From contig OY720345.1 of NCBI GenBank assembly GCA_963082975.1, forward strand, positions 76,911,034 to 76,975,033: DNA of 64,000 nucleotides, given 5' to 3'. Source of the DNA: Labia minor. Taxonomy: Eukaryota; Arthropoda; Insecta; Dermaptera; Spongiphoridae. The notes beneath the pieces are model-generated. The model worked only from the letters and a program-made list of their open reading frames with translations, did not search any database and was not told the DNA's origin. The position numbers were made by a program, and so were the translations under genes. Shown piece after piece: positions 7,379-54,070 of the stretch. The first letter of the stretch is position 1; each line of letters starts with the position of its first letter.

Positions 7379-8104
7379 ACTATCACGTCAGAGATAGTAT
7401 TGCAATCACGAAAATTTTCGATGTTGAGATTTTGATGTTTTTATACGTTTTGAAGGTTCCTGAATCATTTTCACTAAGATTGAGAAAAATGTCTTGTTGT
7501 GAGTGTGTGTGTTTATTTGTGTAGATAAGATTACGCAAAAACGGTTTGAGCTAGAATCATGAAATTTGCTACCCGGGCATTATTCAAAATTCGTAGTTTG
7601 AAATGTCTGTGTGTGGGTGTGTGTGTGTGTATGTATGTAACAAAGATTACGCAAAAACGGTTTGAGCTAGAATGATGAAATTTGGTACATGTGCATTATT
7701 CAAAATTCATAGTTTTCTATCAAATTTTGAGAAATGTAGCTCAACCGGAAGAGGGTCATTACCTACAACGTTTTGATTTTTTTTCTTCTAAAGTGACCGT
7801 AAAAATAAAGATATATGTTTGATAATTTTTCACATGATTAATAATTGTATAAAACTGCTATATATAGAATTTCAGCTTGATTGAATCGCTGAAAGTACCA
7901 GAATTAATTTTTTAACACTGCAAATCTCACGCGCCAACACGTGACGTGGTACCATCAACAAAAAGCCAAACATGCGCTGGTTTACTAAATATTATTTATT
8001 AATTTATAATTTATAATTAATTAAATTTAATTTAAATATAATATATTATGTTATTTAATCCAATTCAAATTTGCGAGATAGTCGAGTGGAAACACTCCAG
8101 CTTA
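7379..8104 (+). mobile_element. HINE-A element (copy 1)
   Basis: The 5' end is ACTATCACGTCAGAGATAGT and the 3' end is GCGAGATAGTC followed by a hairpin and CCAGCTTA against a T-run. The (GT)n microsatellite plus core block (GATTACGCAAAAACGGTTTG, then GAAATTTG) is tandemly duplicated here, about 7490-7605 and 7606-7715, making this the longest copy. No ORF is present. It faces copy 2 (9019-9627) in inverted orientation across a GC-rich island. Confidence 0.8.
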
Positions 8105-8204
8105 TTTTTATTTTATATGAAATTATATGAGATTTCAAAGTAAAAAAGATAAAAAAGATGAGTTTTTTTTTTTGATTTCCGATTTAATAGGTTGAGAGAA
8201 TTAG

Positions 8205-8720
8205 AAGAGAATAAATAATTTGGACATAGAAGGGGAGAGGAGGAGGAGGGGGGGGGGTAGGAACATTGGCTATTCTCTTGCTCCTCTTCCTGAAAGCTCT
8301 CGGTGTGTTTCGTGCGAGATGGTGACGGTGGTGATGGTAGTGGCTGGGGTCGGCCTCATTAGGCGGCCGCCGGGTCGCCGATTTCAATCTCCGTTCTTGG
8401 TTCCGGCCAGCGCTTGCCTTCGAGCGGCCATAGAGCCTTATGCTGGCCACAATCGACCAATCGCGTGCAACTCACGACTAACTTGACTCCCCTCGCACTG
8501 ACTTTATCGTATTGCCAGTCACACGCTACATGTTTTATTAATGCACCGAGCATACACCGCACCTACCTACTCTATTACCATAACATCATTAATCGCCATA
8601 AGGGAACGAACCGGACACCCAATCGCAGAGGTGGATTCAAAAACAGGGAGTGGAAGAAATACAAGTGGCTAATTGTAGTCGAGGCGAATGTCGAGCAACC
8701 ATTTCCTTTTTTTCATTCCC
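8205..8720. promoter_or_regulatory. CpG-rich island between inverted HINE-A copies
   Basis: One of the two most GC-rich blocks of the window. It has many CpGs (GCGGCCGCCGGGTCGCCG near 8363), a run of G at about 8250, CGACCAATCGCG (CCAAT box) near 8454 and a Gly/Arg-rich open frame at 8220-8486. Overlapping ORFs on both strands point to base composition and not to coding. A promoter or first-exon CpG island is the simplest reading. 8721-9018 is AT-rich with nothing recognised. Confidence 0.4.
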
Positions 8721-9018
8721 AATCACAAAAGCGAAATTTTCCTCAAATACCTTAATTAAAAGCGTTTTCTATGATAGCTACCGATATTTATATAGAATCT
8801 TTGAATAATTTATGGGGGAGCTTATATCATGACTGACTATACGATTTATTTAAGACATTTTTCATTTTTTCCACCCCCTCCGAAGAGTGTATGCAAATGG
8901 GAATGTATAATCCAATTAATTATTAAAGAGAAATAGTAAAGTGTTAGAAGATTACACAAATGAGTATTACATAACATTATCATATTGGATTGCATTTTTT
9001 ATCAACCAAAAGAAAAAA

Positions 9019-9627
9019 TTAGCTGGAGTGTCTCCACACGACTATCTCGCAATTTGAATTGGATTAAATAACATAATATATTATATTTCAATTAAATTTA
9101 ATTAATTATAAATTATAAATTAATAAATAATATATAGTAAACTAGCGCATGTTTGGCACTTTGTTGATGGCACCACGTCACGTGTTGGCGCGTGAGATTT
9201 GCAGTGTTAAAAAATTAATTCTGGGTCTTTCAGCGATTCAATCAAGCTGAAATTCTATATATAGCAGTTTTATACAATTATTAATCATATGAAAAATTAT
9301 CAAACATATATCTTTATTTTTACGGTCACTTTAGAGGATAAAAAATCAAAACGTTGTAGGTAATGACCCTTTTCTGGTCGAGCTACATTTCTCAAAAGTT
9401 GATAGAAAACTTCGAATTTTGAATAATGCCCGTATACCAAATTTCATTATTCCAGCTCAAACCGTTTTTGCGTAATCTTGGTTACATACATACACACATA
9501 CACAAACACACAGACATTTTTCTCAACCTTAGTGAAAATGATTCAGGAACCTTCAAAACGTATAAAAACATCAAAATCTCAACAACGAAAATTTTCGTGA
9601 TCGCAATACTATCTCCGGCGAGATAGT
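9019..9627 (-). mobile_element. HINE-A element (copy 2)
   Basis: Full copy on the minus strand. The hairpin end is TTAGCTGGAGTGTCTCC at the left, with sub-terminal repeat ACTATCTCGC next to it, and GGCGAGATAGT is at the right. It contains the (GT)n tract and the CAAAACGTTGTAGGTAATGA core. The tip here is CTAA, not CTTA. No coding content; the open frame at 9426-9626 is internal repeat sequence. Confidence 0.8.
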
Positions 9628-9801
9628 AAAAAATAACTAATGAAATTAATAATTAATTATATATTCAGACTTGACATTTTGTAGAAGAGTAAGAGAGAAG
9701 GATATGATATTTTATCCAAGATTATTTGTAGTTGAATTTTATAAAATAAATAGCAATTTATGTTTTATATTAATTTAAAAATTTTTTTTATACCATAAGT
9801 A

Positions 9802-10012
9802 CAGGGTGTCTCAAAAAAATATATACCTGAAAAAACAAAAAAGCCAGTATGATATGACCAGTCAAATGGTTGGTACATTTTTTGCAAACATAAATCTTTT
9901 ATTCGTTAATTCGTTAATCTTTATAATACAAGCCTTTAAACTTGTCTTTATGTTCATAAATAATGTTTTTATAGTCATTCCAAGTGTTAGTACATTTTTT
10001 TGAGACACCATG
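9802..10012. mobile_element. Tc1/mariner-type MITE, 211 bp, TA duplication
   Basis: The terminal inverted repeats are CAGGGTGTCTCAAAAAAAT at the left and the complement of CATGGTGTCTCAAAAAAATG at the right, flanked by TA on both sides (9800-9801 and 10013-10014). The interior is AT-rich without transposase. TIR sequence and TA duplication fit a non-autonomous Tc1/mariner derivative. Confidence 0.7.
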
Positions 10013-10087
10013 TATATTATAATTCACTTTAACTGATTGATATATTGGTAACTCAGAAAATGATTCTTTATATCAGATATTCTTATA

Positions 10088-10480
10088 CAGTGAATGTTCT
10101 ATATAAGCAACCTCTCTATAAGCATTATTCTTTATCTGCAAACTCTATACAAGCAATTTTTTTAGTTCAACTGTTCTGTATAAGAAACTTATTTTTTTAA
10201 AGCTAAATATTTGTAGTTGACAGCTGTTCACAACAACATAATCTTTGAAAGAAAAAATTTCTCTTATTGGAATATGTATGTGTTTTGTGGTGTCAGAAGT
10301 GAAGTTAATTTCTGATGATTAAAATAGTTACCAAAATTTCTCTTAGTTTCTGTTAATTAATTAATTAATTAATATTTTTGTGCTTTAAATAAAATTGTTC
10401 CCTATAAACAACTTTTCCCGAATAAGAAACTTTTCTATTGAAATTGATTTAAGTGAGTTGCTTATATAGAGCGTTCACTT
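10088..10480. mobile_element. pogo/Tigger-like MITE, 393 bp
   Basis: The inverted ends are CAGTGAATGTTCTATATAAG and, on the other strand, AAGTGAACGCTCTATATAAG, with TA flanks at 10086-10087 and 10481-10482. CTCTATAYAAGCAA motifs recur just inside the left end, as at pogo/Tigger termini. No transposase remains. It is probably mobilised by a pogo-family transposase elsewhere in the genome. Confidence 0.7.
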
Positions 10481-10709
10481 TACCTCATTTAATGTCTCAG
10501 CACATGTAACACGGGTTACCAAAACTTTTAATACCTATTTTTTTACTTCTTTAATTACAATATACACTTGAATGATTTATAAAAAGCGTTATATAATTAG
10601 TAACGAAAAGTTTTCAAATAAAAAAAAAAAAAATATTTAAAAGAAAATGAATCCACCTCATTTGAGGGTTTCAAATAAAATTATTTAAGATAATCATACA
10701 AATGAGGTA

Positions 10710-10860
10710 TATTGACGGAAAAAAGTAATCGCTAGAGTGGCGCTGTAGGCGTGAAATCAACGGATTGAGAAGGTGCATTACTATTGCCCGACAACAGTGC
10801 CACTCTGATGTTTACATTTTTTCGCCACTGTTCCTAAAGCCTTCACACTCACATTTACAC
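10710..10860. promoter_or_regulatory. GC-richer unique island
   Basis: High-complexity sequence (GCTAGAGTGGCGCTGTAGGC ... GCCCGACAACAGTGCCACTC) with two near-inverted motifs, AGAGTGGCGCTGT and ACAGTGCCACTCT, about 60 bp apart, so it could fold. No frame is convincingly coding. It may be a regulatory island or the remnant of a small inverted-repeat element. 10861-11056 is plain AT-rich DNA. Confidence 0.25.
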
Positions 10861-11056: not shown

Positions 11057-11633
11057 ACCATCTCTGGCGAGTTAGTATTGCGATCATGAAAATTTTCGAT
11101 AACGAGATTTTGATGTTTTTATACGTTTTCAAGGTTCGTGAGTCATTTTCACTAAGGTTGAGACAAATGTCTGTGTGTATGTGTGTGTTTGATCTAGAAT
11201 CATCAAATTTGGTATACGGGCATTATTCGAAATTCCTAGTTTTCTATCAACTTTTGAGAAATGTAGCTCAACCGGGTCATTATCTACAACGTTTTGATTT
11301 TTTTTCCCTCTAAACTGACCATAAAAATAAAGATATATGTTTGATAATTTTTCACATGATTGAAAATTGTATACAACTGCTATATATAGAATTTCAGCTT
11401 GATTGAATCGCTGAAATTACCAGAATTAATTTTTTAACACTGCAAATCACAAACACGTGACGTGGTGCCATCAAAAAAGAGCCAAACATGTGCTGGTTTA
11501 ATAAATATTATTTATTAATTTTAATTTATAATTTATAATTAATTAAATTTAATTTAAATATTATTATAATATATTATGTTATTTAATCCTATTCAAATTG
11601 CGAGATAATCGAGTGGGGTGACACTCCAGCTTA
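11057..11633 (+). mobile_element. HINE-A element (copy 3)
   Basis: Degenerate 5' end ACCATCTCTGGCGAGTTAGT, shortened GT microsatellite, GCTCAACCGGGTCATTATC core, and 3' end GCGAGATAATCGAGTGGGGT then GACACTCCAGCTTA. The hairpin stem has an insertion in its loop. The copy is older than copies 2 and 9, judged by its mismatches. The ORF at 11026-11313 is repeat sequence. Confidence 0.75.
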
Positions 11634-12783
11634 TTTTTTGTTTAATTTCTTTTATTATTTTTATATTTATATTATTTAAAATTTTTATTTCAAAAATTTT
11701 TTTAAGAACTTTTTGTTTCCTTCTCCACATCTTGTCTAATATCCTTCCACAAACAAAATAGAAAATAGTAATGATAATATTTATTTGAATCCATATAAAA
11801 ATAAATACACCTATTTTTTCTTATCAGTAAATTTAAATCTTTATACTTCTAAAAGGTTTTTAAATAATATATTATTATTTTATTTTATTTTTTTTTTGAT
11901 TGTACACGAGAGATAAAAGAATAAAAATGTCAAAAATATTATTTGCTATCTAATTATGACACACACATATGGAAGTAGAAATTTTCTAATTAACACCTTT
12001 CCATTTAAGATGAAAATATAGATAAGTTATACGGAACATTCTTACATATTTTACATTTTATTAAAATAAAAAATTGAAAAAAAAAAAAAAAAAATTTAAT
12101 TAAAATTTGACTAATAGGGATATCAAGTGATTAAATATCTAAATGTCAGTAAATTAATAATAATATATATATATATAAAAAAACGTTTCCTTGTTATCAT
12201 CGGAAATATAAAGGCCTTGAAAACGATGACATTGATTGGCAATAAATGACATAATGCACCTGTCTGCTGTTCTCAATCTGATTCTAGTCAAGGACAAATT
12301 ATCAAATGCTCTATTTTCATAAACAGTTTAAACATTTTATAATAATAATAATAATAATAATAATTAAATAAAATTTTAATTTTAAATTTTAGGTTATTTT
12401 ATTAATTTTTTTTTAAATAATAAATTATTATTATTTCTTGTTTTCCTAAACAATTTACAAGTATTTAAGTATTTATAGATAACTTAGAATTATATAAATT
12501 ATAAATTCATTCAACTAAAAACACAAAATACAAATTATTGTTTAAATTAAATTATAGTTAAAAGTTTACTTTTTATTTTTTTATAAATAGGTACCTTTTC
12601 TAATTTAAATTACTGATATTGATATATCATTGATATTGATTATCTTAAGTCTAATTGCTTTCAGTTATAGAAAAATATGAATGAATATACATTTCAAAGT
12701 CTATAAAACATTTCCCACACAAAATAATCTTTGTATGTGTATATTCATATTTGAAGGTCCATAAATAAGATATTGAAATATAT
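11634..12783. other. AT-rich DNA, no gene seen
   Basis: Low-complexity AT sequence with A-runs (12078-12095) and an (ATA)n microsatellite at about 12342-12363. A small higher-complexity patch at 12185-12300 (TTATCATCGGAAATATAAAG) is unassigned. No splice-bounded open frame or repeat match was recognised. Confidence 0.5.
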
Positions 12784-13772: not shown

Positions 13773-13801
13773 ACTATCTCGAGTGGAGACACTGCAGCTT
13801 A
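13773..13801 (+). mobile_element. 29-bp mini HINE-A (both ends joined)
   Basis: The 5' sub-terminal repeat ACTATCTCG runs directly into the 3' hairpin and tip (AGTGGAGACACTGCAGCTTA), with all internal sequence missing. Two T residues separate it from the 5' end of the following full HINE-A at 13804. It is either an extreme internal-deletion copy or the junction of a tandem, rolling-circle-like pair. Confidence 0.6.
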
Positions 13802-13803
13802 TT

Positions 13804-14428
13804 ACTATCTCGTATATCTCTTATTGCGATCATGAAAATTTTCGATGTCGAAATTTTGATGTTTTTATACGTTTTGAAGGTTCCTGAATCATTTTCACTA
13901 AGGTTGAGAAAAATGTCTGTCTGTCTGTCTGTCTGTGTGTATGTGTGTATGTATGTAGACAAGATTACGCAAAAACGTTTTGAGCTAGAATAAAGAAATT
14001 TGGTGTACGGGAATTATTCAAAATTCGTAGTTTTCTATCAACTTTTGAGAAATGTAGCTCAACCGGAAGAGGGTCATTACCTACAACGTTTTGATTTTTT
14101 TTCTCTAAAGTGACCGTAAAAATAAAGATAGATGTTTGATAGTTTTTCCATATGGTTAAAAAGTGTATAAAACTGCTATATATAGAATTTCAGCTTGATT
14201 GAATCGCTGAAAGTACCGGAATTAATTTTTTAACACTTCAAATCTCACGCGCCAACACGTGACGTGGTGCCATCAACAAAGAGCCAAACATGCGCTGATT
14301 TAATAAATATTATTTATTAATTTTTATTTATAATTGATAATTAATTAAATTTAATTTAAATATAATTTATTATGTTATTTAATCCAATTCAAATTTGCGA
14401 GATAGTCGAGTGGAGACACTCCAGCTTA
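13804..14428 (+). mobile_element. HINE-A element (copy 4)
   Basis: 5' ACTATCTCG with a degraded palindrome, GTCTGTCTGTCTGTCTGTG microsatellite, core GATTACGCAAAAACG and AAATTTGGTGTAC, and 3' GCGAGATAGTCGAGTGGAG then ACACTCCAGCTTA before T's. It is preceded by the mini-element at 13773. The ORFs at 13684-13962 are repeat-derived. Confidence 0.8.
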
Positions 14429-14938: not shown

Positions 14939-16247
14939 GGTAAATGCACCAGTGGTGGACCATGTTAAGAGAAATTATTCATTAAAAAACACTATTATTC
15001 TGTAATAAAAGTGAGAATAACAACAAAACAAGTGCTATCATATTGTACAACTATTTTTAATTATCACTACTACACAAACATTCGGTTAATGTATATTTAA
15101 ATATTTTTTTTTAATTTTTTTCAAAACGTATTTTTTGTTCTAATATTGGGCCATCTGAAAATCGAAAGTTTTAGTAGTGGGCCGGTAAAGGACCATCAAC
15201 CTAAAATGAGTTTTAAATAAATAAATGGAATAAAATTCACTAAGGATTGGTTTTATTCATATTTTTTATAATTTCTTATAATTTATTTTAATTATTCTTT
15301 ATATTTACAGTTTGTTTCTTCATATTTACAATTCTTATCCATTTAAAAACGCGGTTTTTAATCAAGAAAGGTCAGTTAATGCAATCGAAAAGAGAAAGAT
15401 AATGACATTAATATAATTTAAAAAATATATTGGAAATTTTAGTAATATTAATTTAATATAATTATAATTATTCATACTACTATAATAATAAATATATTTT
15501 ATTAAATTTATTATTATCAGTAATAAGATGTTTAAATATAATAAATTGTTGTTGATTTTTTGAGTTTCATAAAATAAAATTATAAATTTAATAATGTTTA
15601 TAAATTGGGAATTAACCTATTTATACAATTTATTATCAGCATAAAATTTAGTTATCTAAAGGAATGTGATGAAAATATAATTTAAGTTGTAAAGATTTAG
15701 TGATTAGTCATGTTTATCTCAGTATTTGACCACGTGGTCCACTACTGAATAGAATTGTTCTAGACACTTAAAACACAAAAAAAATTAGCATACATCACAT
15801 TTATTTTAATAAAAATAAAACGATTTTAGTAAAAAAAAATTTAATCTTATTTTTTAATAATTAATAATTTATAATCATCACATAAATTAAATATTTCAAA
15901 CTGATTAATATAATTTGTAGTATCAACTATTGAATTTAATTTTTGGATTGAAATTATTATTAAATAAAACATAATCTATTGGAAATAAACTGAAGCATAT
16001 CCTTAACGTTTTGCATAAGAAACGAACCTTAAAATACAAGAACGCTTGCCTCGTGTTTTAAAAAATTCATAATTATAATATAAATGCAGCGATTGGTCTC
16101 TGTTTCATTGTTAAGCAATCCGAAAAAGGCTCTTCTCGATATTTATCGATATTTCAAGTTTAATTTGAAATTAAAAAGCTTATTTTGATCAAAAATTTAT
16201 CAAATGGTTCATTACTGGGTCAGTGGTCCACCACTGGTACGTTTACC
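14939..16247. mobile_element. 1.3-kb TIR element, unclassified
   Basis: The ends are inverted repeats: GGTAAATGCACCAGTGGTGG at the left, and on the other strand GGTAAACGTACCAGTGGTGG at the right, both followed by ACCA. Variants of the motif recur inside, at about 15172-15200 (AGTAGTGGGCC, GGACCATCAAC) and about 15726-15745 (GACCACGTGGTCCACTACTG). The interior is AT-rich without transposase. Target duplication is unclear, so the superfamily is open. Confidence 0.6.
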
Positions 16248-16826: not shown

Positions 16827-17018
16827 TGAACGATGAATTTGCAACATTTCAATAAAAAAAAATAAAAATTTTATCTACAAATAATATTATTTCTATGAAA
16901 TTAGTATTTATAACCAAATTGGAATTAAATTATTTAGATTAATTAATATTATCTCATTAACTAATTTTAAATTTTAAATTTCTAAATAAAAATTTATCAG
17001 AAAAATTAAAGAATTTTT

Positions 17019-17513
17019 ACAAACTGACGATAGGTAAGGAAGGTATTGTTTGCTCACTAAATTTCACATGTGGAGATTTTTACATATCTCCACCAATCAT
17101 GCATTTTGTTAATAGAAAAATGTATTTTTCGCATATCTGTCCGTCCTTCCATCTGTCCATACTGTGTCTGTATAGAGGTGTACAGCTTGAACGGCTCAAC
17201 GGATTTTGATAAAATTTGGTATATTTACTTAATGCATCAGTAGCATGAATTCCTCAACTTTAACCGGAATTAGTAGTTTTCAAAGTAAATAATTAATTTT
17301 ATATTCATTGTCGGAAAATATTTTACTTAAATTATAGTAGTAATTAATAATTTAGTAATTAAACTAAAAATAAAAACCAAGATAATATAATTTAGTCATT
17401 TTGATTCAAATTTTAAAAATATTTTTTTTATACTTTATATATATATATAATGTTGTTTGGAAATTAATTTATATCAAATCGTCGGTCGGTTCTATGTCTG
17501 GCCACATCTCATA
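17019..17513 (+). mobile_element. HINE-B element (copy 2, long-core subfamily)
   Basis: 5' end ACAAACTGACGATAGG (decayed ACCGACCGACG), ATGTGGAGATTTTTACATAT core, GTCCGTCC-type microsatellite, TTTGGTATATTTACTTAATG, a long AT-rich middle, then the 3' repeat CGTCGGTCGGT and a weakened hairpin around TATGTCTGGCCACAT. It is followed in the same orientation by copy 3, giving a head-to-tail pair. Confidence 0.7.
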
Positions 17514-17544
17514 TTTTTTAAATTAGATTAAAAAGAAATTAAAT

Positions 17545-18010: not shown

Positions 18011-18671
18011 TTTTTTATCTATAATATTATTAGAGCAACTAGATTTTAAAGGTATGATATTTAATACTTGTAAATATTGTAAACATCATTACCCGGGCAT
18101 AGGTATTTTATTACAATTGCTGCTGTAGATATTTTAGGATTAAGATGTAAATTTTAATTTGATTCGTATTAAGATGTAAAATTTTCTGAAAAAAAATAAT
18201 TAAATTTAAAAAGACAAAAATTAATGCTTACTGAAGTTATTAATGAAAACATTCACTTGAATTGAAAATAATTCTTGTTAATATGTAGGAAAACAGGTGT
18301 TATCACTATAAAAATATTTTCATAAATATTATGTAAATTTAACAAATTTTTTAGTTTTTTTTTTTAAATGACCTTGATACGTATCTACTTACATATCAAT
18401 GATTAATATTTGATAACATAAGTGCTATAAATATAAATAATTATTTTATTAATCAACTTCTTTTCTTTAAATAAATTAAACGTATATAAAAATTTATTAG
18501 CTATTTTTTTTTTTAATTTTGTAATTGATATTTTTCTTGGACATATGTTTATAAGAAATAATTTATTTGCAGAAATTGTTTTATAGACAACCATACTATA
18601 CCAGATTATATATATTATTAATTAATAAATGTAAAAATAATCTTTTGAGGGATTTTACTTCTCTGTGTTTT
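18011..18671. other. AT-rich DNA, no gene seen
   Basis: AT-rich sequence with long T-runs. An open frame on the minus strand at 18403-18594 is Lys/Ile/Asn-rich, as expected by chance at this composition. No motif was recognised. Confidence 0.5.
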
Positions 18672-18825
18672 TACTATCTCGCCAGAGAGCCAAACATGCG
18701 CTGGTTTACTAAATATTATTTATTAATTTATAATTTATAATTAATTAAATTTAATTTATATATAATATATGTGTTAATTAATTCAATTCAAATTGCGAGA
18801 TAGTCGAGTGGAGACACTCCAGCTT
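18672..18825 (+). mobile_element. HINE-A short internal-deletion copy (5)
   Basis: Only 154 bp. The 5' end ACTATCTCGCCAGA joins directly to the 3' third (GAGCCAAACATGCGCTGG), continuing through GCGAGATAGTCGAGTGGAGA to GCTTA. Both sub-terminal repeats and the hairpin are intact although the microsatellite and core are gone, so the termini may suffice for mobilisation. Confidence 0.75.
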
Positions 18826-19199
18826 ATTTTTTATATTATTATTATTATTAATATTATTATAGTTATTTAAATTAAGTTTTAATTTCATTTAAATTCATAC
18901 CTCTAATTCAAAAGTCATATGTAAATAAAATATTAAATTATATCTTTTAGGTAAGTAATAATTTTTAATTTATCAATCTTTTAAGTTTATATCATCCAAT
19001 ATGTAAAGTTTACATTGTAAACAATAAAAAAACTGAATTATCAAAAATCATTAAATTATATCCACATTTTGCACATAATGTTCTTCTATTTTTCTAAATA
19101 TTAATTTTCCTTCAATTAATTTTATTGAGTATTAAAAAAATACATAAATGAAGATTTTATAAATATTTAAATAAATTATCAAATTAGATAGATATTTTT

Positions 19200-19380
19200 A
19201 CTATCTCGCCAGCAAGTCACGTGGTATCATCGACAAAGAGCCAAACACGCGCTGGTTTAATAAATATTATTTATTATAATTTTAATTTATAATTTAATGA
19301 ATTAAATTTCATTTAAATATAATATATGTTAATTAATCTAATTCAAATTTTCAAGATAGTCGAGTGGAAAGTCTCCAGAT
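19200..19380 (+). mobile_element. HINE-A short internal-deletion copy (6)
   Basis: The 5' end ACTATCTCGCCAG joins to CAAGTCACGTGGTATCATCG, close to but not at the same junction as copy 5. The 3' end is decayed (TCAAGATAGTCGAGTGGAAA, then GTCTCCAGAT). It is therefore an independent deletion derivative. 18826-19199 between the two is AT-rich DNA. Confidence 0.7.
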
Positions 19381-20192
19381 TTTTTTATGTAAATGCAAAT
19401 TTCTTCTTTTAAAAAATTGTTTTAAGTCCCTGTGTGTATGAATATAAGTGAAGGAATATATGAGTAATCATTACACTATTATCTCTTTTACTTTGTTTAT
19501 TCTCGTTGTTAAAACATTATGTAAAATAGTTGTTTTTTAAAAACAAAAAAAAAATGATTACTAAAAATATAAAATGTCTTATGTTTATTTTTAAACTTTA
19601 ATTAAATCCTATTTTATTAACGATATATTGATTTACTTATAATAAAAAGTAAACATTTCAATTTCAATTGTACAATTCTCCTAAACAGGGCCCCTCATTC
19701 TTGACCTAAAGATTTTAATCATTTAACAATTACGTTTTCAAGGATTCCTTTAAGAATCAATTAAATATAACTTGTAATATTTTTTTTTCTAATATTCCTC
19801 CATTTATATAAAATCTTATCCTGGTGGTAATTTGCTCTGACTGACTTAATTGGAGATGAGGAGTTTCTATCGTCTGCAAGGAAAATATACCTATAATTAC
19901 ATATTTCTTTATTTTTCTTATTTTTTTATTTTTATTTTTATTTCTTTTTTTTTGTCATTCATTAGCATTCAAACAATTTTAGAGTAAAAATATTGTCATG
20001 TCATCACACTTAATGGATAATCGAATGTTGACAGGGCTAAACTACCAATTGGTTAATAAAAATTTTTGTTAATTTCAAAAAGTTTCTTTCTTCTAATTAA
20101 TTAAAGTGGCATTGCACCATTAATTTTACAAACACTACCAATGATAATTTATTATATATAAAATAAATCAATCGTCAATTAGATTTTAGTAA
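19381..20192. other. AT-rich DNA, no gene seen
   Basis: AT-rich sequence with one more complex patch at about 19815-19890 (GGTGGTAATTTGCTCTGACT ... TCTATCGTCTGCAAGG). No repeat, ORF or splice-bounded exon could be supported. Confidence 0.45.
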
Positions 20193-26694: not shown

Positions 26695-27172
26695 CGAATT
26701 TTTAGTAAAAATCATTTGTGTGTAGAAAGTATCAAAAAAAAATAAAAATATTTTTAAAACTTGAGTTAAAATGACTAAATTATTATTTTAGTTTTTATTT
26801 TTAGTTTAATTAATCAATTATTTATCATTACTATAATTTAAGTGAAATTTTTTCCGATAATGAATATAAAATTAATACTTTGTAAACTACCACTTCTGGT
26901 TGCCGGATACACACCAAAAGTTGAAGAATTCATGCTACTGATGCATTAAGTAAATATACCAAATTTTATCAAAATCCATTGAGTCGTTCAAGCTGTACAC
27001 GTCTATTCGGACACACAATGGACAGACGGACAGGCGGACAGACCTCATGCTAAAAATACTTTTTTCTGTTAACAAAATGTACGATACATGGAGATATGTA
27101 AAAATCTCCACATGTGAAATTTGTTGTGAAAACAATACCTTCCCTTCCTATTTCGGTCGCCAAATATATATA
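26695..27172 (-). mobile_element. HINE-B element (copy 4, long-core subfamily)
   Basis: The reverse complement matches copies 2 and 3, including TTGATACTTTCTATACACA, the long AT-rich middle, TTTGGTATATTTACTTAATG, a GTCC/GTCT microsatellite, ACATGTGGAGATTTTTACAT and a 5' end decayed to GGCGACCGAAATAGGAAGG at 27170. The 3' sub-terminal repeat and hairpin are not found next to it. Confidence 0.65.
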
Positions 27173-36650: not shown

Positions 36651-37264
36651 ACCTTCCCCTAAGTTTCTAATAATTATAAAACTTAGTTTTTCATTAAGTG
36701 TTTAATAATTTTTAATTAATTTTCAATGTTTCATCCATGAACAAGGTTCATCATTGATATCAGCGTTTTTCAATCTTTTCACCATATACAGAACCCTTAT
36801 GACCTTTCTCTAAGTTAGAAGAAAGATTATTAATCAACTTTAAACACACAAAATTATTAAAACTTCAACGGTTTTTATCAATGTCTTTTAATTAAAAAAC
36901 ATATAATTGGAGTAATTTGGATACAATTTATAATTACCAACAAGTAATTTTTTTTAAAAAAAATTAAATAAATCATAGAATCTTAAACTATTTTAGTCAT
37001 CTAAGAATGGATAAATTACAAATGTAAGCCAGGTCGGTTTCTATCTTTTAAATAAGACTACAAATTAGTACGAAAGGACCTTTTGTGGGGAATAGTTTTT
37101 ATATACGATGAATAAAAAAAATTATTTTGGCAGAATAGTGGGTTAGATTTAGAACTTAAATTATGTAACATGGTTACAAATAATAATGCAATTTAAAATT
37201 CTTGATAATTTATTAACCTTTGTAGGAATGTTGATTTTGGTGATTGGGATTTTGGACTTTACTC
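36651..37264. other. AT-rich DNA with one hAT-like end
   Basis: At about 36759 CAGCGTTTTTCAATCTTTTC resembles the end of hAT MITEs (CAGNGNTTNTCAA), but no second end was found. The rest is AT-rich with no ORF. Confidence 0.35.
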
Positions 37265-37495
37265 TAAATTAATTGGTAATTGTTTAGCCTAACCGACGAA
37301 TGATGAATTTGGATAAAAGTTTACCAGTGGATTCCTTTTTACTTTCCCGCATACTTCGTATAATTACTTTCCCGCATACTTCGTATAAGGGAAGTATTGG
37401 AATCGTCAAAAATTTCGACTTCGAGATTTTGATAGATCTTGACGTTTTAGACCTCCCTGAGTCGGAAAATACCATTTTTCGAATTATGTCTGTGT

Positions 37496-37532
37496 GTATG
37501 TATGTATGTATGTATGTATGTATGTATGTATG

Positions 37533-37562
<30 letters not shown>
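37496..37562 (+). repeat. (GTAT)n microsatellite
   Basis: About 16 perfect GTAT units at the position where HINE-A has (GT)n and HINE-B has (GTCC)n. The microsatellite slot is a shared structural feature of these elements. Overlapping ORFs that read as Met-Tyr-Val-Cys repeats are artefacts of it. Confidence 0.95.
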
Positions 37563-37563
<1 letters not shown>

Positions 37564-37850
37564 TGTCTGTAAGCAAATTTACTCAAAAACTAATCAAGCT
37601 AGGACTTCGAAATTTGGTACACCGATATTATTCACAGTTTCAAATTTCGTCAAAATCGGTTAACCGGAAGTGGTACTTTACCTACCCTGGTTGCGTTTAC
37701 CTTTCAAGTAAAGTACCAGTTTGCTTCTAGATATTTGCTTCATATTTTGTATATAGATTTAAAAATATGAAAAAAATTGAGATACCAAATTTCATCATGA
37801 TCTGACTACCGGAAGTGACATTTTACCTATACAAGAAGCGTTTCTTTTTT

Positions 37851-38370
37851 ACCGACCGACGATAGTAAGGGAGGTATTGTTTTCACACCAAATTTCACCT
37901 GTGGATATTTTTAGGTACATGTCTCCACGAATCATGCATTTTCTTTACAGAAAAATGTATTTTTAGCATGATGTCTGTCCGTCCGTCCGCTGTGTGACCG
38001 TAGAGATGTGTACAGCTTGAACGGCTCAACGGATTTTGATGAAATTTGGTATATTTACTTAATGCATCAGTATGATGAATGGATCAACTTTTGGTGCAAA
38101 TCCGGAAACCGGAAGTGCTAGTATTGCCGATCGAAGAGAGGAAGTGAAGGGTTATTTTCATATCAAATTTCACATGAAGACATATCTCCACGTGTTAGGC
38201 ACTTTGAATTGGTTTTATCCTCGTGAAAAATCATCTTCATTAGTTTTTTCTTAATTTAAAATTATATGACGTCACCCAGCACTTCATGACGTCACAGCCT
38301 GCCCTTATATATTATAAATAAAATAAAATTAAAAATATTTATATTATATCCATATCTGTTTTTTTACATT
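37851..38370 (+). mobile_element. HINE-B (5' part) inside HINE-D
   Basis: 5' end ACCGACCGACGATAGTAAGG, microsatellite GTCCGTCCGTCC, core GGCTCAACGGATTTTGATG, GGAAACCGGAAGTGC and TGACGTCACCCAGCACTTCA. It lacks the 3' repeat and hairpin: the text changes to HINE-D (AGTTAACCGGAAGTAGC) near 38375. It is either a 3'-truncated insertion or the result of capture by HINE-D. Confidence 0.75.
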
Positions 38371-38954
38371 TAAAATATCAGTTAACCGGAAGTAGCACTT
38401 TATTACATTCTAGATATTCATTCACAACTCTTTATACCTATTTATATGCGGGAAAGTCTAGGGGAGGACACTCCCGCTTATTTGATTCAAAACAAACTTT
38501 CCTTAAGCAGTATGTGGCGGTTGCTTCTAGTTTACACGATAAAAATTATTAAAGTTTTCATATTATATTTAGCTACCATGTTTTATTATTTGACCAGTAG
38601 AGGGTTTCACTAATTTTTTGTTTTTATAAGTTCAGTTTGGATATAAGAAAATAAAAAAATTAATTAATTAAATAATTTTCCTATATACAAACCGAAAATT
38701 AGTGAATAAGTGAATAATTACTGAATTAGTCAATAAAACATTATTAAGTGGCTGCTCATTCATAATTAGTTTATCTCTCAAACTTTAATAATTTTTATCT
38801 CGTAAACTAGAAGCGACCGCCATATACTGCTTAAAGAAAGTTTGTTTTGAATCAAAAAAGGAATCCATTGGTAAAGTTTTATCCAAATCTATCATACATC
38901 GGTTAGACTAAACAATTACCAATTAATTTATAAATAAAATATAGCAATAAAAAA

Positions 38955-39542
38955 TAAGCTGGAGTGTCTCCACTCGACTATCTCGCAATTTGAATTGGAT
39001 TAAATAACATAATATATTATATTATAATTAAATTTAATTTATTATAGATTATAAATTAAAATTAATAAAAAATATTTATTAAACCAGCACATATGTTGAT
39101 GGCACCAAGTCACGTGTTGGCGGGTGAGATTTGCAGTGTTAAAAAATTAATTCTGGTACTTTCAGCGATTCAATAGAGCTGAAATTCTATATATACCGGT
39201 TTTATACAATTATTAATCATGTGAAAAATTATTCAACATATATCTTTATTTTTACGGTCACTTTAGAAGAAAAAAAATCAAAACGTTGTAGGTAATGCCC
39301 CTCTTCCGGTTGAGTTACATTTCTCAAATGTTGATAGAATACTATAAATTTTGAATAATGCCCATGTATCAAATTTCATGATTCTAGCTCAAACAGTTTT
39401 TACGTAATCTTGGTTACATACATACACACATACAGACATTTTTCTCAACTTTAGTGAAAATGATTCAGGAACCTTCAAAACGTATAAAAACATCAAAATC
39501 TCAACAACAAAATGATCGCAATACTATCTCTGGCGAGATAGT
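38955..39542 (-). mobile_element. HINE-A element (copy 7)
   Basis: Full minus-strand copy, left TAAGCTGGAGTGTCTCCAC then ACTATCTCGC, right CTGGCGAGATAGT. The microsatellite is short (TGTATGTGTG). It lies 24 bp beyond family E and about 200 bp upstream of the CpG island at 39.74 kb. Confidence 0.8.
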
Positions 39543-43125: not shown

Positions 43126-43720
43126 ACTCTCTCGTAAGAGATAGTATTGCGATCACGAAAATTTTCGATGTTGAGATTTTGATGTTTTTATACGTTTTGA
43201 AGGTTCCTGAATCATTTTCACTAAAGTTGAGAAAAATGTCTCTCTGTGTGTGTGTGTATGTAACCAAGATTACGCAAAAACGGTTTGAGCTAGAATCATG
43301 AAATTTGATAGATGGGCATTATTCAAAATTTATAGTATTTTATCAACTTTTGAGAAATGTAGCTCAAGCGGAAGAGGGTCATTACCTACAACGTTTTGAT
43401 TTTTTTTCTTCTAAAGTGGCCGTAAAAATAAAGATATATGTTTGATAATTTTTAACATGATTAATAATTGTATAAAACTGCTATTTATAGAATTTCAGCT
43501 TGATTGATTCGCTGAAATTACCAGAATTAATTTTTAAACATTGCAAATCTCACGCGCCAACACGTGACGTGGTGCAATCAACAAAAAGTCAAAAATTAAT
43601 AAATATTTATTAATTTTAATTTATAATTTATAATTAATTAAATTTAATTATAATATAATATATTATGTTATTTAATCCAATTCAAATTGCGAGATAGTCG
43701 AGTGGAGACACTCCAGCTAA
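43126..43720 (+). mobile_element. HINE-A element (copy 8)
   Basis: 5' ACTCTCTCGTAAGAGATAGT (palindrome kept by paired changes), (GT)n, the core, 3' GCGAGATAGTCGAGTGGAGA and CACTCCAGCTAA before a T-run. The end here is CTAA. Well preserved. Confidence 0.8.
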
Positions 43721-44727
43721 TTTTTTTATTTATTTTTATAACATTTGTTGTTGTTTTTTTTATTTTTATTATTTGTAAATTAATTAATTTTAATTTTAGG
43801 CAATCATGGAAATTTTAATTATATAAAATATTCTTTAGATAGTCTGCTTAAACCAAACAAAAGGGATTCTCTAATTGGTTGGTGTATTTATTAAAACCGT
43901 TGGAGTTAATTGATTTTCTTTAGCTGGCATATGTTTTTCTTTCAACACGAATATTTCATGAAGAGAAATTGGTAGAGAAATTATAGGTTTATAGTCATTG
44001 GAAAACTTCATTTATTTTTGACAAAATTTTATTTTGCCGTTCAACCTACACCCCCCCACCCCCACCCCCTTTCACCTCCCTTCAACCCAAAACTTATTTT
44101 TATTGGTGTATAAATAATTCACTTTTGGTCATTTTCAATTAAATTGATATATAAAATTTTTAAATTCTTGGAAATAATTTTTCAATATCATTTCAATTAA
44201 CTTGATTAATTTTATTATCTCTTATATATTTATTTACTATAAATTATTTAAATATATCGTATTTAAGTATATAAAAAAAAATCAAAAAAATCAAAACAAT
44301 AATTATATCTTTAAAAGTCTATGAAATTATTAAAATTGAGCATAATATAAAATAAATCGTTTTTATTTATTATCAGAACACATTTACTTTAATTATTTTT
44401 TTAAAATTTAAAAAATAAATTAATTTATATTTATAATTATATGTTGATAATAAGGTAAGCTTAATAATAATAATAATAAAAAAATTAAGACCAGTTAAAA
44501 CAAAAATTAATCTTTTTATGATATTTTAGTTTTTTAATTAAATTATAATCATAATTAAGCCACTTAAACAATCTCAGACAATAAAACAATAAAAAATAAA
44601 GTAAAAAATTTTAACATTGCTAATTATACAGTAATATATAATATTAATATATATATAAAATATTATTTAAAATATTTGATCAATCAAAATTAATTATTAT
44701 TTTTATTGGAATTCAGTTCAATTTTTT
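43721..44727. other. AT-rich DNA with a C-rich run
   Basis: A C/A-rich tract at about 44048-44070 (CACCCCCCCACCCCCACCCC) and an (AAT)n tract at about 44465. The rest is low-complexity AT. No gene or element seen. Confidence 0.45.
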
Positions 44728-44859
44728 CTATCTCGCCAGAGATAGTATTGCGATCACGAAAATTTTCGATGTTGAGATTTTGATGTTTTTATACGTTTTG
44801 AAGGTTCCTGACTCATTTTCACTAAGGTTGAGAAAAATGTCTGTGTGTGTGTGTGTATG

Positions 44860-44891
<32 letters not shown>

Positions 44892-45348
44892 GACAAGATT
44901 ACGCAAAAACGGTTTGAGCTAGAATGATGCAATTTGGTACATGAGTATTATTCAAAATTCATAGTTTTCTATCAACTTTTGAGAAATGTAGCTCAACCGG
45001 AAGAGGGTCATTACCTACAACGTTTTGATTTTTTTTCCTCTAAAGTGACCGTAAAAATAAAGATATATATTTGATAATTCTTCACATGATTAATAATTGT
45101 ATAAAACTGCTATATATAGAATTTCAGCTTGATTGAATCGCTGAAAGTACCAGAATTAATTTTTTAACACTGCAAATCTCACGCGCCAACACGTGCCATG
45201 GTGCCATCAATAAAAAACCAAACATGCGCTGGTTTAATATTTATTATTTATAATTTATAATTAATTAAATTTAATTTAAATATAATATATTATGTTATTT
45301 AATCAAATTCAAATTTGCGAGATAGTTAAATGGAGACACTCCAGCTTA
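44728..45348 (+). mobile_element. HINE-A element (copy 9)
   Basis: CTATCTCGCCAGAGATAGTA start, long (GT)n at about 44840-44885, complete core, and 3' GCGAGATAGTTAAATGGAGA then CACTCCAGCTTA. The hairpin stem is weakened (TAAATG for TCGAGTG). Otherwise close to consensus and likely recent. Confidence 0.8.
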
Positions 45349-46089: not shown

Positions 46090-46093
46090 TTAA

Positions 46094-47412
46094 CCCTTTC
46101 AATACTGTAGGGACATATTGTCCCAGAGAATTTCTAATAAAAACTAAAATAATTTAAATGCTTACAAATGCATTGGGATCTGGGATTTCAGTTGTGCACT
46201 GTCATAGGCTAGTAAATAAGCCCAAAACTGTCTGCTTTTTTTATTTTTTATAATATTTTGTCATTCTAGATGTTACTAGCAAACAGTATACACGGGTCAT
46301 GCCTATTACTATCTGTTTTTATTTGTTCTGTGCTCGGATTTGCGTAGGAAGCTATTTATAATTTTATATTACTTATTTAGTGTGCAGCAATAGTTTATGT
46401 CAGTTTTTTAGTTCCAAAAATAATAATGGGACTTATATGTCCCAATAGTGTTAATTATTGGGATATTATTTCCCATCAGTATTGACTAACCGATATATTC
46501 AACAAAATAAGCTATTTTTTATTTTATTTTATTTTATTTTACTTATTTCCCATCAGTATTGAATAACCAATATATTCAAAAATAAGCTGGAGTGTCTCTA
46601 CTCGACTATCTCGCAATTTGTTAAAAAATTAATTCCGGTACTTTCAGCGATTCAATCAAGCTGAAATTCTATATATAGCAGTTTTATAGAATTTTTAATC
46701 ATGTGAAAAACTATCAAATATATTTCTTTATTTTTACGGTCACTTTAGAGGAAAAAAAATCAAAACGTGGTAGGTAATAGCCCTCTTCCGGTTGAGCTGC
46801 ATTTCTCAAAAGTTGAGAGAAAACTACAAATTTTGAATAATGCTCGTATACCAAATTTCATTTTTCTAGCTCAAACCGTTTTTGAGTAATCTTGTCTAGA
46901 TACACACACATACACACAGACATTTTTTAGTGAAAATGACTCAGGAGCCTTCAATACGTATAAAAACATCAAAATCTCGACATCGAAAATTTTCGTGATC
47001 GCAAATACTATTTCTAGCGAGATAGTAAAAAGGAAACAAAAATCACTTGCCAAATGTACACAGTAGTGCTCTGCAATGATTGTTTTGCTAAATATCATTC
47101 TTGATTACTTTATATATATATATATATATGCAGTAAAAAAGAAATGTTGAATTTCAATGATGTTTTTCTTTTCTTTTTTTTTTCTTATTTTATGTGCTCC
47201 ACAATTTTACTATCATAAAATACTGTTGGGACATACGACCCACATACCAATAATATTGGGACAATATGTCCCAATTATTATTGTACAATAATCAAAAAAT
47301 AATATGATCATTTAATAATATGATGTTTTTCCCGCCAAACTAAATTAGAAATAAATATTTTTTGCTATAAATATTACATTAATTATTAGAAAAATAAATC
47401 GTATTGAAAGGG
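46094..47412. mobile_element. piggyBac-like element, TTAA duplication
   Basis: CCCTTTCAATACTGTAGGG at the left and CGTATTGAAAGGG at the right form TIRs flanked by TTAA (46090-46093, 47413-47416), the piggyBac target. GGGACATATTGTCCC-type palindromes recur inside both ends (about 46112, 46428, 47227, 47259). No transposase; a HINE-A lies in the middle. About 875 bp without the insert. A segment (TTTCCCATCAGTATTGA ...) is duplicated at 46468 and 46546. Confidence 0.8.
46583..47026 (-). mobile_element. HINE-A element (copy 10), nested in piggyBac-like element
   Basis: TAAGCTGGAGTGTCTCTACT and ACTATCTCGCAATTTG, then an internal deletion to TTAAAAAATTAATTCCGGT, core, GT tract and GCGAGATAGT at the right. 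It is younger than the host element. Confidence 0.8.
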
Positions 47413-48997: not shown

Positions 48998-49034
48998 GTG
49001 AGTTGGACATTTTACTTTTTTTATTATTATTGTA

Positions 49035-49462: not shown

Positions 49463-49508
<46 letters not shown>

Positions 49509-50475: not shown

Positions 50476-51353
50476 TTAGTATGTTCAATAAGTTCGCGGA
50501 GCGCCATCTATTCGTCAATATTAGACATAAAACTTCGACGCTATTTTCATATTTGTTCTTTCTTAGGAAGTGAGAAATATTTTAAGTGTTAATTTGGGTT
50601 TCAAAAAACTATGTGCAAAATGGGTGCCGCATTTTCTAACGATGGAGCAAAAATACATTCGTGTGCGATTTTACCAGCAACATTTGAAGGGTTTTAAGAA
50701 GAATAAAAGCAACTTTATCCGTCGATTTATCACAATGGATGAGACTTGGGTCTACCATCATGATCCTGAATCAAAACAGGACGCTAAGGAGTGGTGTGAA
50801 CCCATTTGGCGCCTAAGCGAGTTCGTGTGCAAAAATCAGCCAAGAAGGTGTTAGTATCAGTTTTTTTAGGGATTCAAAAGGAATTTTGATTATAGATAAC
50901 CTCCAAACTGGCAAAACAATCAATGCGGATTATTATTGTTACCTTTTGAATCAATTAGACGAACAAATTTGTGAAAGAAGACACGGATTACAGAAGAAGT
51001 AAATCATTTTCCACTAACTTCAAAACCATTGCTAAAATAACTGAATTGAATTGAACAAATTGTTGTAACATCCAGCTTATTCGCCAGATTTAGCCCCCTC
51101 CGACTTTTGGCTCTTCCCACGCCTCAAACAATATCCCCATGGAAAACGATTTTCTTCAAACGAAGAGGTAATAGCTGCGGTGGAGGGATATTTTGCAGAG
51201 CTACCAGAAATCCACTAGTCAAGGGATCCATAAATTAGAAGACCGTTGGAATAAGTATATTGAAGTTGAGGGAAACTACGCTGAAAAATAGTCATTTTTA
51301 CAAATAAAAATTGGTTTCTTTATTTCCGTTCCACGCACTTATTGAACAACCTA
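50476..51353 (+). mobile_element. mariner element, third family, 878 bp
   Basis: Ends TTAGTATGTTCAATAAGT at the left and, on the other strand, TTAGGTTGTTCAATAAGT at the right, followed inward by TCGCGGA/GCGTGGA. It sits in a TA-rich site. The transposase is decayed. Family differs from the mariners at 21137 and 23337. Confidence 0.85.
50570..51290 (+). pseudogene. mariner transposase relic
   Basis: The first frame reads FIRRFITMDETWVYHHDPES, the first catalytic Asp region (family: VDETW.HH). After frameshifts near 50850 comes the third Asp region AYSPDLAPSDFWLFPRLKQ at about 51072-51125. The middle region with the second Asp (HHDNA.PH) is mutated beyond reading. Non-functional. Confidence 0.8.
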
Positions 51354-52494
51354 ATATATACCTATATATATAGAGTTATAATATAATATTATAGATTTGA
51401 TAAAAAAAATTTTAATAAAGATATTTTTTTTTTTAATTTTCATATTAAATTGATAGATTTTTGTTTTGTTTTTATTTCCCCCCATTGCTAGGAAAGAATC
51501 ATCTCCCCTATATATCTACAATTTTAATTTCAATTTTAATATTAAAAAAAATATCCCCTTCGTCACATCCATTAATTAATAAATATCAAAAAAAAAAAAA
51601 TTATTAATTATCCAAACTCACTAAAATCATTTTTGAATTCATTCCCCATGTTTTAGTGTTATTATAAAATAAATAGCATTTATTTATTTTTTTCATAATG
51701 AAAATTATGTAGATAAAGCTTACATGATAGTTGAAAAAAGCATACCAGTGAAATTCCAAATAGATAATGATATGATAATTATTCATTTATTTAAAAATCC
51801 ACTCTAATTGCTTTTTCTTTTATTATCCAGTTAAACACAATCATTTTTTCATTTTTTTTTCTGGTTCTTAATGTTATATTATTTTATTTTTATTTATAGA
51901 TAATATATATCCACCATATGAATATACTTATTATTAATGTGTTTGTTTGTTTTAGTATAATAATTTAAATCAATTATATATTTTGAAATTAACTGAATGT
52001 TTCTACAAATATGTAAATTACTTATAAAATCAAGGCAAACGGAATGATTAAGTTAATTTTTTTTTAAATATCAAATTACCTCCACACACCTACCAACTAT
52101 TATAAATCTCTCCATTATAAATTATCTATATCTATCTATTTAAATTTCTTAATATATTTTACATTAACGATCTGCCCAATATTGAATCATTTTTCTATCT
52201 TTAAGATAAACTACATTACATTTATATAATACATATATTATAGATATATTTATATCACATTTTTAAATTAATGAATTTTCAATATTCTAAAACTTTTAAA
52301 TTTAAATAACTGATCATAATTTATGAACCCTTGTCTATATTTTATTACTATGAATTTGTATTTTGTTGAGTGTGATTTTATCAAATTAATAAATAAATAT
52401 TTTAATTTTCTTAATTTGATAATAAACAATATTCAAACTTATTTTTTATTTTGGTTATTTTTTTATTCTAGGGATACAATCCAACAGGGTCCGC
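51354..52494. other. AT-rich intron-like DNA, no gene seen
   Basis: AT-rich sequence with homopolymer runs. Minus-strand frame 51604-51786 is compositional. No repeat match. Confidence 0.5.
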
Positions 52495-52608
52495 TCTAGA
52501 GGGCGGTAAAACTGACATTTGTCCGGGGCGGCAAATCTGAAGGGTGGCAATTTTATAAATATAGGGGCGGCGGCAATTTATTCGCTATAAATACTAAAGC
52601 GGGCCCTG
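52495..52608. mobile_element. Small hAT-like MITE, 114 bp
   Basis: CAGGGTCCGCTCTAG at the left and, on the other strand, CAGGGCCCGCTTTAG at the right. GAGGGCGG and GGGGCGGCAAAT-type text lies between. CAGGG-starting ends fit hAT; the 8-bp flanks do not match, so the duplication has decayed. Confidence 0.5.
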
Positions 52609-52873
52609 TACCCATATAAACATCTTTTCCTTTAAACTTGTATTTTTTTTTTTGTAGTTTTCTCTAAATTTTCAAACACAATTTTAATGCTATACAAGTA
52701 TTAATTAACTTATTAATTATTCCGTTTGAATTTATTCATGGAAACAGTAGCTAGTTGGTGTTAACATGAATATTATAATATATTAATGTTTAGTGATCAA
52801 AAAGTAAGTGTTTATATCATCATCTTTGATTGATTTACTCATATAATTAATTGCTCATATTCATGATTGGGGT

Positions 52874-53128
52874 CAGTGATGTATTGGTAAAATAAAAAGT
52901 AAGGGAACGCATAGTGGGAGCAAAAAAAAGGCCCTATTTTCAGCAAACTATTTTTTTCCATATAAGTTTTTATTTTTTCTTATTCTTACTATATAAAATA
53001 TATACCAACACAAAAAAGAAATTTTAACAGTAGATTTAAGTGGGAGTTGTCGGGACATGAAAAAGTACGGTTCTAAAAAAAGGTAAGGGAACGTCGTTCT
53101 CCCGCGTTCCCCTCCCAATACATCACTG
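52874..53128. mobile_element. hAT-like MITE with exact 8-bp target duplication
   Basis: CAGTGATGTATTGG at the left and CCAATACATCACTG at the right form perfect 14-bp TIRs. The 8-bp target ATTGGGGT is present on both sides (52866-52873, 53129-53136), the hAT hallmark. Sub-terminal AAGGGAACG motifs occur near both ends. Non-coding, 255 bp, and likely a recent insertion. Confidence 0.88.
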
Positions 53129-53445
53129 ATTGGGGTTTATGTGATTGTGATGAAATTATTATATAATAAAAATAGAAAATGAAAAAAGAGGAAGAGAGAG
53201 GGTTTTGTTGTCAAAAATCAGTGTAGTCAATTTATATTTCATAATAATTAAGTTTTTTTAAATTTAAATCTAATATCAAGTTTTATTAGATTTAATCTAT
53301 GAAATTTTATATTATCTTTTATTGATTAAATTACAAATTTATTAATTTAAAAAATATATTTCTCTTCTTTTACTATCTTATTATTTTTTTTTTATAAAAT
53401 TCATTAATTGTATAAAATCCAAAAGCTGTTGAGGTGTACATTTTT

Positions 53446-54070
53446 ACCGACCGACGATAGTAAGGGAGGTATTGTTTTCACACCAAATTTCACATGTGGA
53501 GATTTTTACATATCTCCACGAATCATGCATTTTCTAAACAGAAAAAAGTATTTTTAGCATGATGTCTGACCGTCTGTCCGTCCGTCCGTATAGATGTGTA
53601 CAGCCTGAACGGCTCAACCGATTTTGATGAAATTTGGTATATTTACTTAATGCATCAGTGGGATGAATTGATCAACTTTTGGTGTATATCCGGAAACCGG
53701 AAGTGGTAGTATTAGAGATCGACGATAGGAAGGGAAGGGTTATTTTCACACCAAATTTCACATGAGGAGATTTTTTTATATATCACCACGAATCGTACAC
53801 TTTGTATTGGTTTTATCCTCTGGAAAATCATATTTATTAGTTTTTTCTTGATTTAAAATTATATGATGTCATCCAGCCATTCATGACGTCACAGCCTGGT
53901 CTTACATATATATTATAAATAAAATAAAATTAAAAATATTTATGTTATATTCATATCTGTTTTTTATTACATTAATAGATATATTAAAATTATTTGAAAT
54001 TGTTTCTGTAGCTGAAAATTAATTTACTTCAAAACGTCGGTCGGTTCGGACCTGGCCACAGGTCAACTTA
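53446..54070 (+). mobile_element. HINE-B element (copy 6), complete reference copy
   Basis: 5' ACCGACCGACGATAGTAAGG; core ACATGTGGAGATTTTTACAT; GTCCGTCCGTCCG microsatellite; AACGGCTCAACCGATTTTG; AACCGGAAGTGGTAG; TGACGTCACAGCCTGG; 3' CGTCGGTCGGT. Hairpin GACCTG-GCCA-CAGGTC and AACTTA follow, against TTT. The two sub-terminal repeats are perfect 11-bp inverts. This copy best defines the family. Confidence 0.85.

Follow-up and report, generated by a model that had tools for sequence, protein, structure and literature searches.

Coding Helentrons have been described together with short HINE partners as HINE-Mo/Helentron-Mo and as the DINE-1/Helentron pairs of Culex and Drosophila (PMC4067079). 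Here we analysed three HINE families, HINE-A, HINE-B and HINE-D, in a stretch of 64,000 nucleotides of Labia minor (C2:76911034-76975033, 75% A+T; referred to as the window), and their relatives elsewhere in the 604-Mb genome of 71 contigs. All comparisons are based on this one genome and on published papers. As far as the sections of PMC4067079 considered here go, the systems have in common sub-terminal inverted repeats, a 3' palindrome, a T-rich target and the lack of a long target duplication. A Rep/PIF1/AP-endonuclease partner with an RGSPH motif and HINEs that are deletion derivatives are likewise shared. Unlike those systems, HINE-A has a repeat of 10 bp instead of 12-15 bp, and the end sequences found here were not matched in the parts compared. 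The same parts report variable T numbers and no target modification, whereas we observed the same two-base gain at three D insertions. The oyster element Cg_HINE (PMC7492417, in the parts consulted) shares the 5' repeat, the adjoining hairpin arm and the microsatellite slot, including its GTCC type, as well as the 3' repeat, the palindrome and insertion into T runs; unlike Cg_HINE, the window copies have no satellite array between the modules.

The data presented below argue strongly that HINE-A, HINE-B and HINE-D are non-autonomous Helentrons, each very probably a deletion derivative of its own coding Helentron. New here are three end/transposase sets in one genome, the two-base gain at three D insertions, different C-terminal proteases and composite HINEs.

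End classes, shared layout and borders

A preliminary description of the window had proposed three terminally distinct HINE families built on one plan. The end classes A, B and D are real and occur far above chance. On both strands of the window the exact sub-terminal repeats were found 13 times for A (10-mer), 4 times for B (11-mer) and 3 times for D (13-mer), while 100 Markov-shuffled windows taken together contained one, none and none, respectively. Genome-wide, where patterns read backwards served as control, the A 3' tip (21 bases) had 13,589 exact matches (reversed pattern 0), a density of roughly one in 44 kb. The B 5' end (29 bases) had 21,408 (reversed 0), including B pieces inside D, and the D repeat 6,796 (reversed 5), a count that covers both ends of every element. 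The window itself holds about ten A copies, one complete B together with several partial or diverged B copies, and one D:

7379..8104, plus strand: HINE-A with degraded 5' repeat (ACTATCACGT), a ~116-bp tandem duplication inside, 3' hairpin and CTTA
9019..9627, minus strand: HINE-A with intact sub-terminal repeats and 5' hairpin ACTATCTC/GAGATAGT
11069..11639, plus strand: HINE-A, diverged
13804..14428, plus strand: HINE-A, with a 31-bp A remnant (13773-13803) immediately 5'
18673..18830, plus strand: HINE-A, short, internally deleted
19200..19385, plus strand: HINE-A, short, internally deleted
38955..39542, minus strand: HINE-A
43126..43720, plus strand: HINE-A
44727..45348, plus strand: HINE-A, ~94% identical to the A Helentron 5' end over the first ~540 bp
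46583..47026, minus strand: HINE-A, internally deleted
53446..54070, plus strand: HINE-B, complete, with 5' ACCGACCGACG, GTCC slot, 3' CGTCGGTCGGT, hairpin (54049-54064) and CTTA
5316..5909, minus strand: HINE-B without the first ~40 bp, 95% identical to 53446-54070
17013..17524, plus strand: HINE-B, diverged, matching in two pieces
26886..27167, minus strand: HINE-B 5' part, diverged
37341..38480, plus strand: HINE-D with the 5' 25-bp unit tandemly doubled, GTAT slot (37485-37571), 3' repeat (38445-38457), palindrome (38462-38475) and CTTA
37846..38370, plus strand: HINE-B 5' part without B 3' end, inside the HINE-D at a position that is also occupied in other D copies
38780..38930, minus strand: empty-site paralogue of the D insertion, with T6 versus T5 + T3 at the filled site

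The 31-bp remnant consists of a 5' repeat fused to a 3' hairpin and resembles a head-to-tail junction with the next HINE-A.

Four A, two B and three D sequences, comprising HINEs and coding partners, were aligned. They have a layout of ~330 bp in common, in which the sub-terminal repeat is followed by a hairpin arm ending in GTATTG, by GAGATTT, the microsatellite slot, AAATTTGGTA and CCGGAAG. In most rows the slot is preceded by ATGTCTG, and single copies depart from the layout. Apart from single-copy exceptions, the slot and the cores GAAATTTGGTA and CCGGAAG align across the three families and their coding partners, in agreement with the earlier proposal of a slot adjoining a related core. 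The perfect repeats of 10-13 bp that had also been proposed were recovered as exact repeats of 10 bp (A), 11 bp (B) and 13 bp (D), the degraded 5' repeat of the A copy at 7379 being the part of this claim that did not stand. At 10 bp, the A repeat falls short of the 12-15 bp reported for mite (PMC4067079) and of the 11 identical bp that define a family. The core sequence had no match in viral contigs, and in the literature, to judge from the entries listed, it retrieved unrelated papers only.

The 3' palindromes read GAGTG-GAGA-CACTC in A, GACCTG-GCCA-CAGGTC in B and GGGAG-GACA-CTCCC in D, with stems of 5-6 bp in all three. Each is followed by CTTA and then T, with CTAA instead in some A copies. 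The hairpins with loops GAGA, GCCA and GACA before CTTA can thus be read in all families as described. DNA folding returned exactly this hairpin for the B 3' end (z -1.9). For A an overlapping hairpin, TGGAG-ACA-CTCCA, was preferred (z -2.1) and for D a longer pairing with its sub-terminal repeat (z -4.0), so that the fold is shifted in A, and longer in D, than the palindrome read from the sequence. The sub-terminal repeat and its 5' hairpin arm change jointly, from ACTATCTC/GAGATAGT in A to ACTTTCCC/GGGAAGT, one base short, in D; in B the two pair only partly (5 of 7). Read by eye, the two changes from A to D in the repeat each have a counterpart in the hairpin arm and another in the 3' repeat, the exception being the one base missing in the D hairpin arm.

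The borders were examined in 10 copies of A and 4 of D. An eleventh A call was left out as spurious since it started inside a gene, and B was left out because an internal repeat formed the start of two of its three calls. The outer 50 bp were 36.4% and 36.0% identical among the A copies (shuffled left flank 35.2%) and 28.7% and 32.0% among the D copies (shuffled left flank 27.8%), whereas the inner 50 bp reached 64.5% and 84.3% in A and 64.3% and 100% in D. The A and D copies are therefore unrelated beyond their borders, and no consensus extended further in either family. The 5' border lies between T and AC and the 3' border between CTTA or CTAA and T, both in T runs; runs of 2-8 T flanked both borders in 10 of 10 A copies. 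For B, the evidence of a T run comes from the 5' border of a single fragment, located in the coding element e2 described below. A canonical Helitron has 5' TC and 3' CTRR termini. Its insertion between A and T is described in the part of PMC5148889 consulted. The canonical Helitron was rejected on border structure, target site and partners.

Insertion sites could be compared with empty sites for three of the four D copies, with 3, 3 and 14 empty copies. The empty site was exactly two bases shorter at the junction in 19 of 20 filtered alignments; the exception was the diverged L048 copy, which aligned with larger gaps. Two of the insertions have clearly gained two T within a T run; at the third (L001) the run also differs by substitutions. 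A longer target duplication was absent at all three. One D copy lies inside a palindromic repeat of the window and another inside a HINE-A. The repeat in the window has inverted arms (37200-37340 and 38486-38930), one of which carries the D insertion; further diverged copies are located at 57619-58106 and 63630-63768.

A two-base gain and perfect inverted repeats of 10-13 bp would also suit miniature inverted-repeat transposable elements (MITEs) that are moved by a cut-and-paste transposase acting on the repeats, with a 2-bp TT target duplication. Such elements have terminal inverted repeats at both borders and a target duplication. The repeats found here are asymmetric: one is located at the 5' border itself, the other 22-25 bp inside the 3' border with the palindrome outside it, and the coding elements with matching ends are Rep/helicase/endonuclease Helentrons. 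We rejected the MITE on border structure, target site (a gain of two bases only) and partners, and consider this origin extremely improbable.

Coding Helentrons that carry the HINE ends

The Rep family PF14214 had at least 104 matches in the genome. Some of these Reps contain the motif RGLPH and others RGSPH, which distinguish Helitrons and Helentrons, respectively, according to the part of PMC4067079 consulted; RGSPH was present in the A, D and B-type (e6) genes. The search for autonomous Helentrons with the HINE ends, which the preliminary description had recommended, was positive, with A ends at both sides of a coding element, D ends at both sides of another and the B 5' end on a third. These partners support the DINE-1/HINE-like, Helentron-related layout that it had recognised.

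The A Helentron (e2, C1:47858301-47878300, reversed) has an open frame of 2,181 codons with PF20209 (DUF6570), PF14214 Rep and PIF1 by Pfam, an Exo_endo_phos_2 endonuclease match below the Pfam cut-off and a GDFN motif. An A 5' end, partly duplicated and 93-94% identical to HINE-A over the first ~540 bp, starts at 3524. An A 3' end without HINE body is located at 15652-15696 in the same orientation, 12.2 kb from the other end. A second A copy (C1:44.69 Mb), nested in the D element e7, has 98.6% DNA identity over 6.4 kb and has kept its 3' end and lost its 5' end. In a copy on C10 (88-93%), the A 5' end lies 1.4 kb upstream of the gene. In the D element e7 the D 5' end is located at 5371 (84% over ~480 bp), and the 3' repeat and hairpin of D at 19115 (94% over 79 bp, with a single mismatch in the repeat). 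Its Rep/helicase/endonuclease gene, recognised by BLAST and a GDFN motif, is broken. At C1:55784501 the first ~525 bp of HINE-B are present at 91%. A Helentron gene start, 98% identical to e6 at the DNA level, begins 1.8 kb after this B 5' end; matches to the B gene resume after a gap of ~5 kb and end in endonuclease and OTU domains. For B, Rep was identified by Pfam and the helicase by BLAST to A, with OTU above and the endonuclease below the Pfam cut-off. Two further loci, e6 and C2:51573570, hold broken B-type genes. The other Helentron genes (e1/e3/e4 family, e5 and e6) had no A, B or D ends at both sides within 20 kb each; in the e1/e3 family, two copies are alike from TTTTACCACGTTTTTC onward.

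The match between HINE and coding element thus covers the first ~540 and last ~45 bp in A, ~480 and ~80 bp in D, and ~525 bp at the 5' end only in B. Sub-terminal repeats, a 3' palindrome, T-run insertion, a Rep/PIF1/AP-endonuclease partner and RGSPH were all found, and the layout, the T target and the coding partners together place these HINEs in the Helentron group.

Could the ends beside Helentron genes be chance neighbours, left by truncated HINEs that landed there? HINEs are dense in this genome, B fragments sit inside A and D elements, and a 5' end is missing from two of the four A copies. The ends beside the A and D genes, in contrast, stand at the right sides and in the right orientation without the rest of a HINE. 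Two copies share an A 3' end downstream of the gene, and two share an A 5' end upstream of it. We therefore regard chance neighbourhood as highly improbable.

The Rep/helicase regions are 50% identical between A and B, 55% and 58% between A and D, and 49% over most of the length (57% over 37 residues) between B and D, the B protein being taken from e6, which has 98% DNA identity to the C1 gene start. At 49-58% identity each end class has its own lineage, which fits the earlier suggestion of several transposases or fast end evolution. The e3 and e5 lineages share 57% identity with each other and 23-36% with the A, B and D proteins. Instead of separate partners, one promiscuous Helentron might move all three families, for instance A with its open gene, the different ends having arisen by neutral drift. 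The 5' regions are indeed homologous over ~330 bp, and among the three an uninterrupted gene together with both ends was found for A only. However, each end class is found beside its own diverged Rep lineage, and matched changes at both ends and in the hairpin arm would not be kept by drift. A single common transposase is very unlikely on this evidence.

The proteins also differ at the C-terminus. The B Helentron ends in an OTU domain, as do Helentron proteins described with a C-terminal deubiquitinase, OTU or VTD (PMC9741609; OTU also in PMC4067079; both as far as consulted). The A Helentron, unlike these, ends in a stretch that weakly matches Ulp1/SENP-like proteins (Pfam E 0.0013, below cut-off; PDB SENP8 E 0.0043). 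Ulp1 is known from other DNA transposons (PMC2836005, in the part consulted), and among the matches listed there was no paper on a Helentron together with Ulp1.

By analogy with the known family, the partner's Rep would nick at the T/5' border; the strand would be peeled off and copied up to the stop at the 3' hairpin and CTTA, and the copied strand joined into a T tract that the endonuclease domain may have nicked. A HINE would retain ~500 bp from the 5' end, with sub-terminal repeat, hairpin arm, microsatellite slot and conserved core, joined to a short 3' end with sub-terminal repeat, hairpin and CTTA. Ends and proteins would have diverged together, with the 5' repeat, the 5' hairpin arm and the 3' repeat still able to pair.

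Several observations weigh against derivation of each HINE from its own coding Helentron. Among the A copies the 5' end is present in two of four (absent in e7 and in the C60 copy) and the 3' end in two of three examined; the 1,080 bp that follow the C10 copy contain none. In e2 a B-Helentron 5' fragment separates the A 5' end from the gene. This fragment starts right after GTATTTTT, in a stretch found uninterrupted twice in the same element. In the C10 copy the A 5' end lies closest to the gene, which speaks for the fragment in e2 being an insertion. The D partner is broken; the nested A Helentron interrupts it, and its 3' tip has no CTTA. The B gene was read as two parts ~8.5 kb apart. A B 3' end was looked for at L054, the sole locus with a full match to the B C-terminus, and did not turn up in the 2.8 kb after the gene. 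In the endonuclease region A and D are only 33-36% identical. The two-base gain could be a 2-bp TT duplication, and empty sites were obtained for 0 of 11 A calls and 0 of 3 B calls.

Several HINE end classes in one genome that can be paired with their own coding Helentrons are natural sets for testing which part of the end a Helentron Rep recognises.

A stretch just upstream of the gene is common to different Helentron lineages (L041/L042 reversed, 5404-7536; L053, 832-2629; L039, 6949-7490). It is 90% identical between A and B elements and 79-89% with the e1/e3 family, although the proteins differ, which suggests exchange or insertion of 5' modules.

Composite and nested HINEs

The three families had been treated as separate in the preliminary description. 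This does not hold for the D copy in the window, which is a composite of D and B: the B sequence at 37846-38370 is part of D and has no B 3' end. Nine closely spaced D pairs from the first 3.5 Mb of C1 were inspected, excluding unpaired D ends and one pair 2.2 kb apart. In six of them the B 5' end is present exactly, at a distance of 449-469 bp from that of D, and two more contain a diverged or truncated B by BLAST, so that eight of nine are composite. The remaining pair, of 580 bp, has no B and is too short to hold one. Since the B piece in D lacks the B 3' end, the long HINE-D seems to be a composite whose parts multiply together.

A narrow empty-site pattern for A found no site. A joined-flank search for an A empty site scored 40 of 1,990 candidates; at all 40 only the right flank matched, beginning at the A border, and this led to a fourth element into which A is nested. 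This element (in e1; L039/L040 joined, 18044-19759; C6:19239044-19240759) measures 1.7 kb with HINE-A inside, has a 15-bp inverted repeat, GAAGTGAAACTTCTT, near its ends and contains a 206-codon minus-strand frame with a Helentron-type endonuclease part. The exact junction between A and the fourth element occurs 218 times genome-wide (reversed control 0). Where the A flank could be paired with the endonuclease part, in 12 of the 40 flank matches, the spacing was 996-1,048 bp, as expected with A present. Of the 104 matches in the C-terminus search, 99 comprised the endonuclease part of the fourth element only, 12 of them at its spacing. In folding, its ends did not exceed shuffled sequence (z -0.3 and -0.5), and we class it as a HINE provisionally. 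Given the composites and the fourth element, the genome contains more than three end classes.

These findings allow a wider reading, which we put forward tentatively. The genome may hold several matched Helentron transposase/end sets that diverged in step in the 5' repeat, the 5' hairpin arm and the 3' repeat, with a different C-terminal protease in A (Ulp1-like) and in B (OTU). HINEs may, in addition, multiply as nested passengers, each at a single fixed site: B without its 3' end inside D, and A inside the endonuclease-bearing fourth element. Copying would start at the 5' end of the outer element and ignore the inner one, and composites would, if this is true, be a regular route to new HINE families. 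Nesting suggests how new non-autonomous families arise, and annotators should be aware that genome counts of HINE-A and HINE-B are partly passengers of other elements.

Canonical Helitrons were observed alongside the Helentrons. At C5:46739897-46771612, five equal-scoring, damaged canonical Helitron Rep matches are spaced 9.8, 9.8, 5.7 and 5.7 kb apart, resembling a tandem array. Seven further Rep matches (L015-L021, on C9, C10, C1, C2 and C5) have the same score of 195.7 bits and open frames of 1,537-1,652 codons, are of the RGLPH type where read, and perhaps represent a recent canonical Helitron family.

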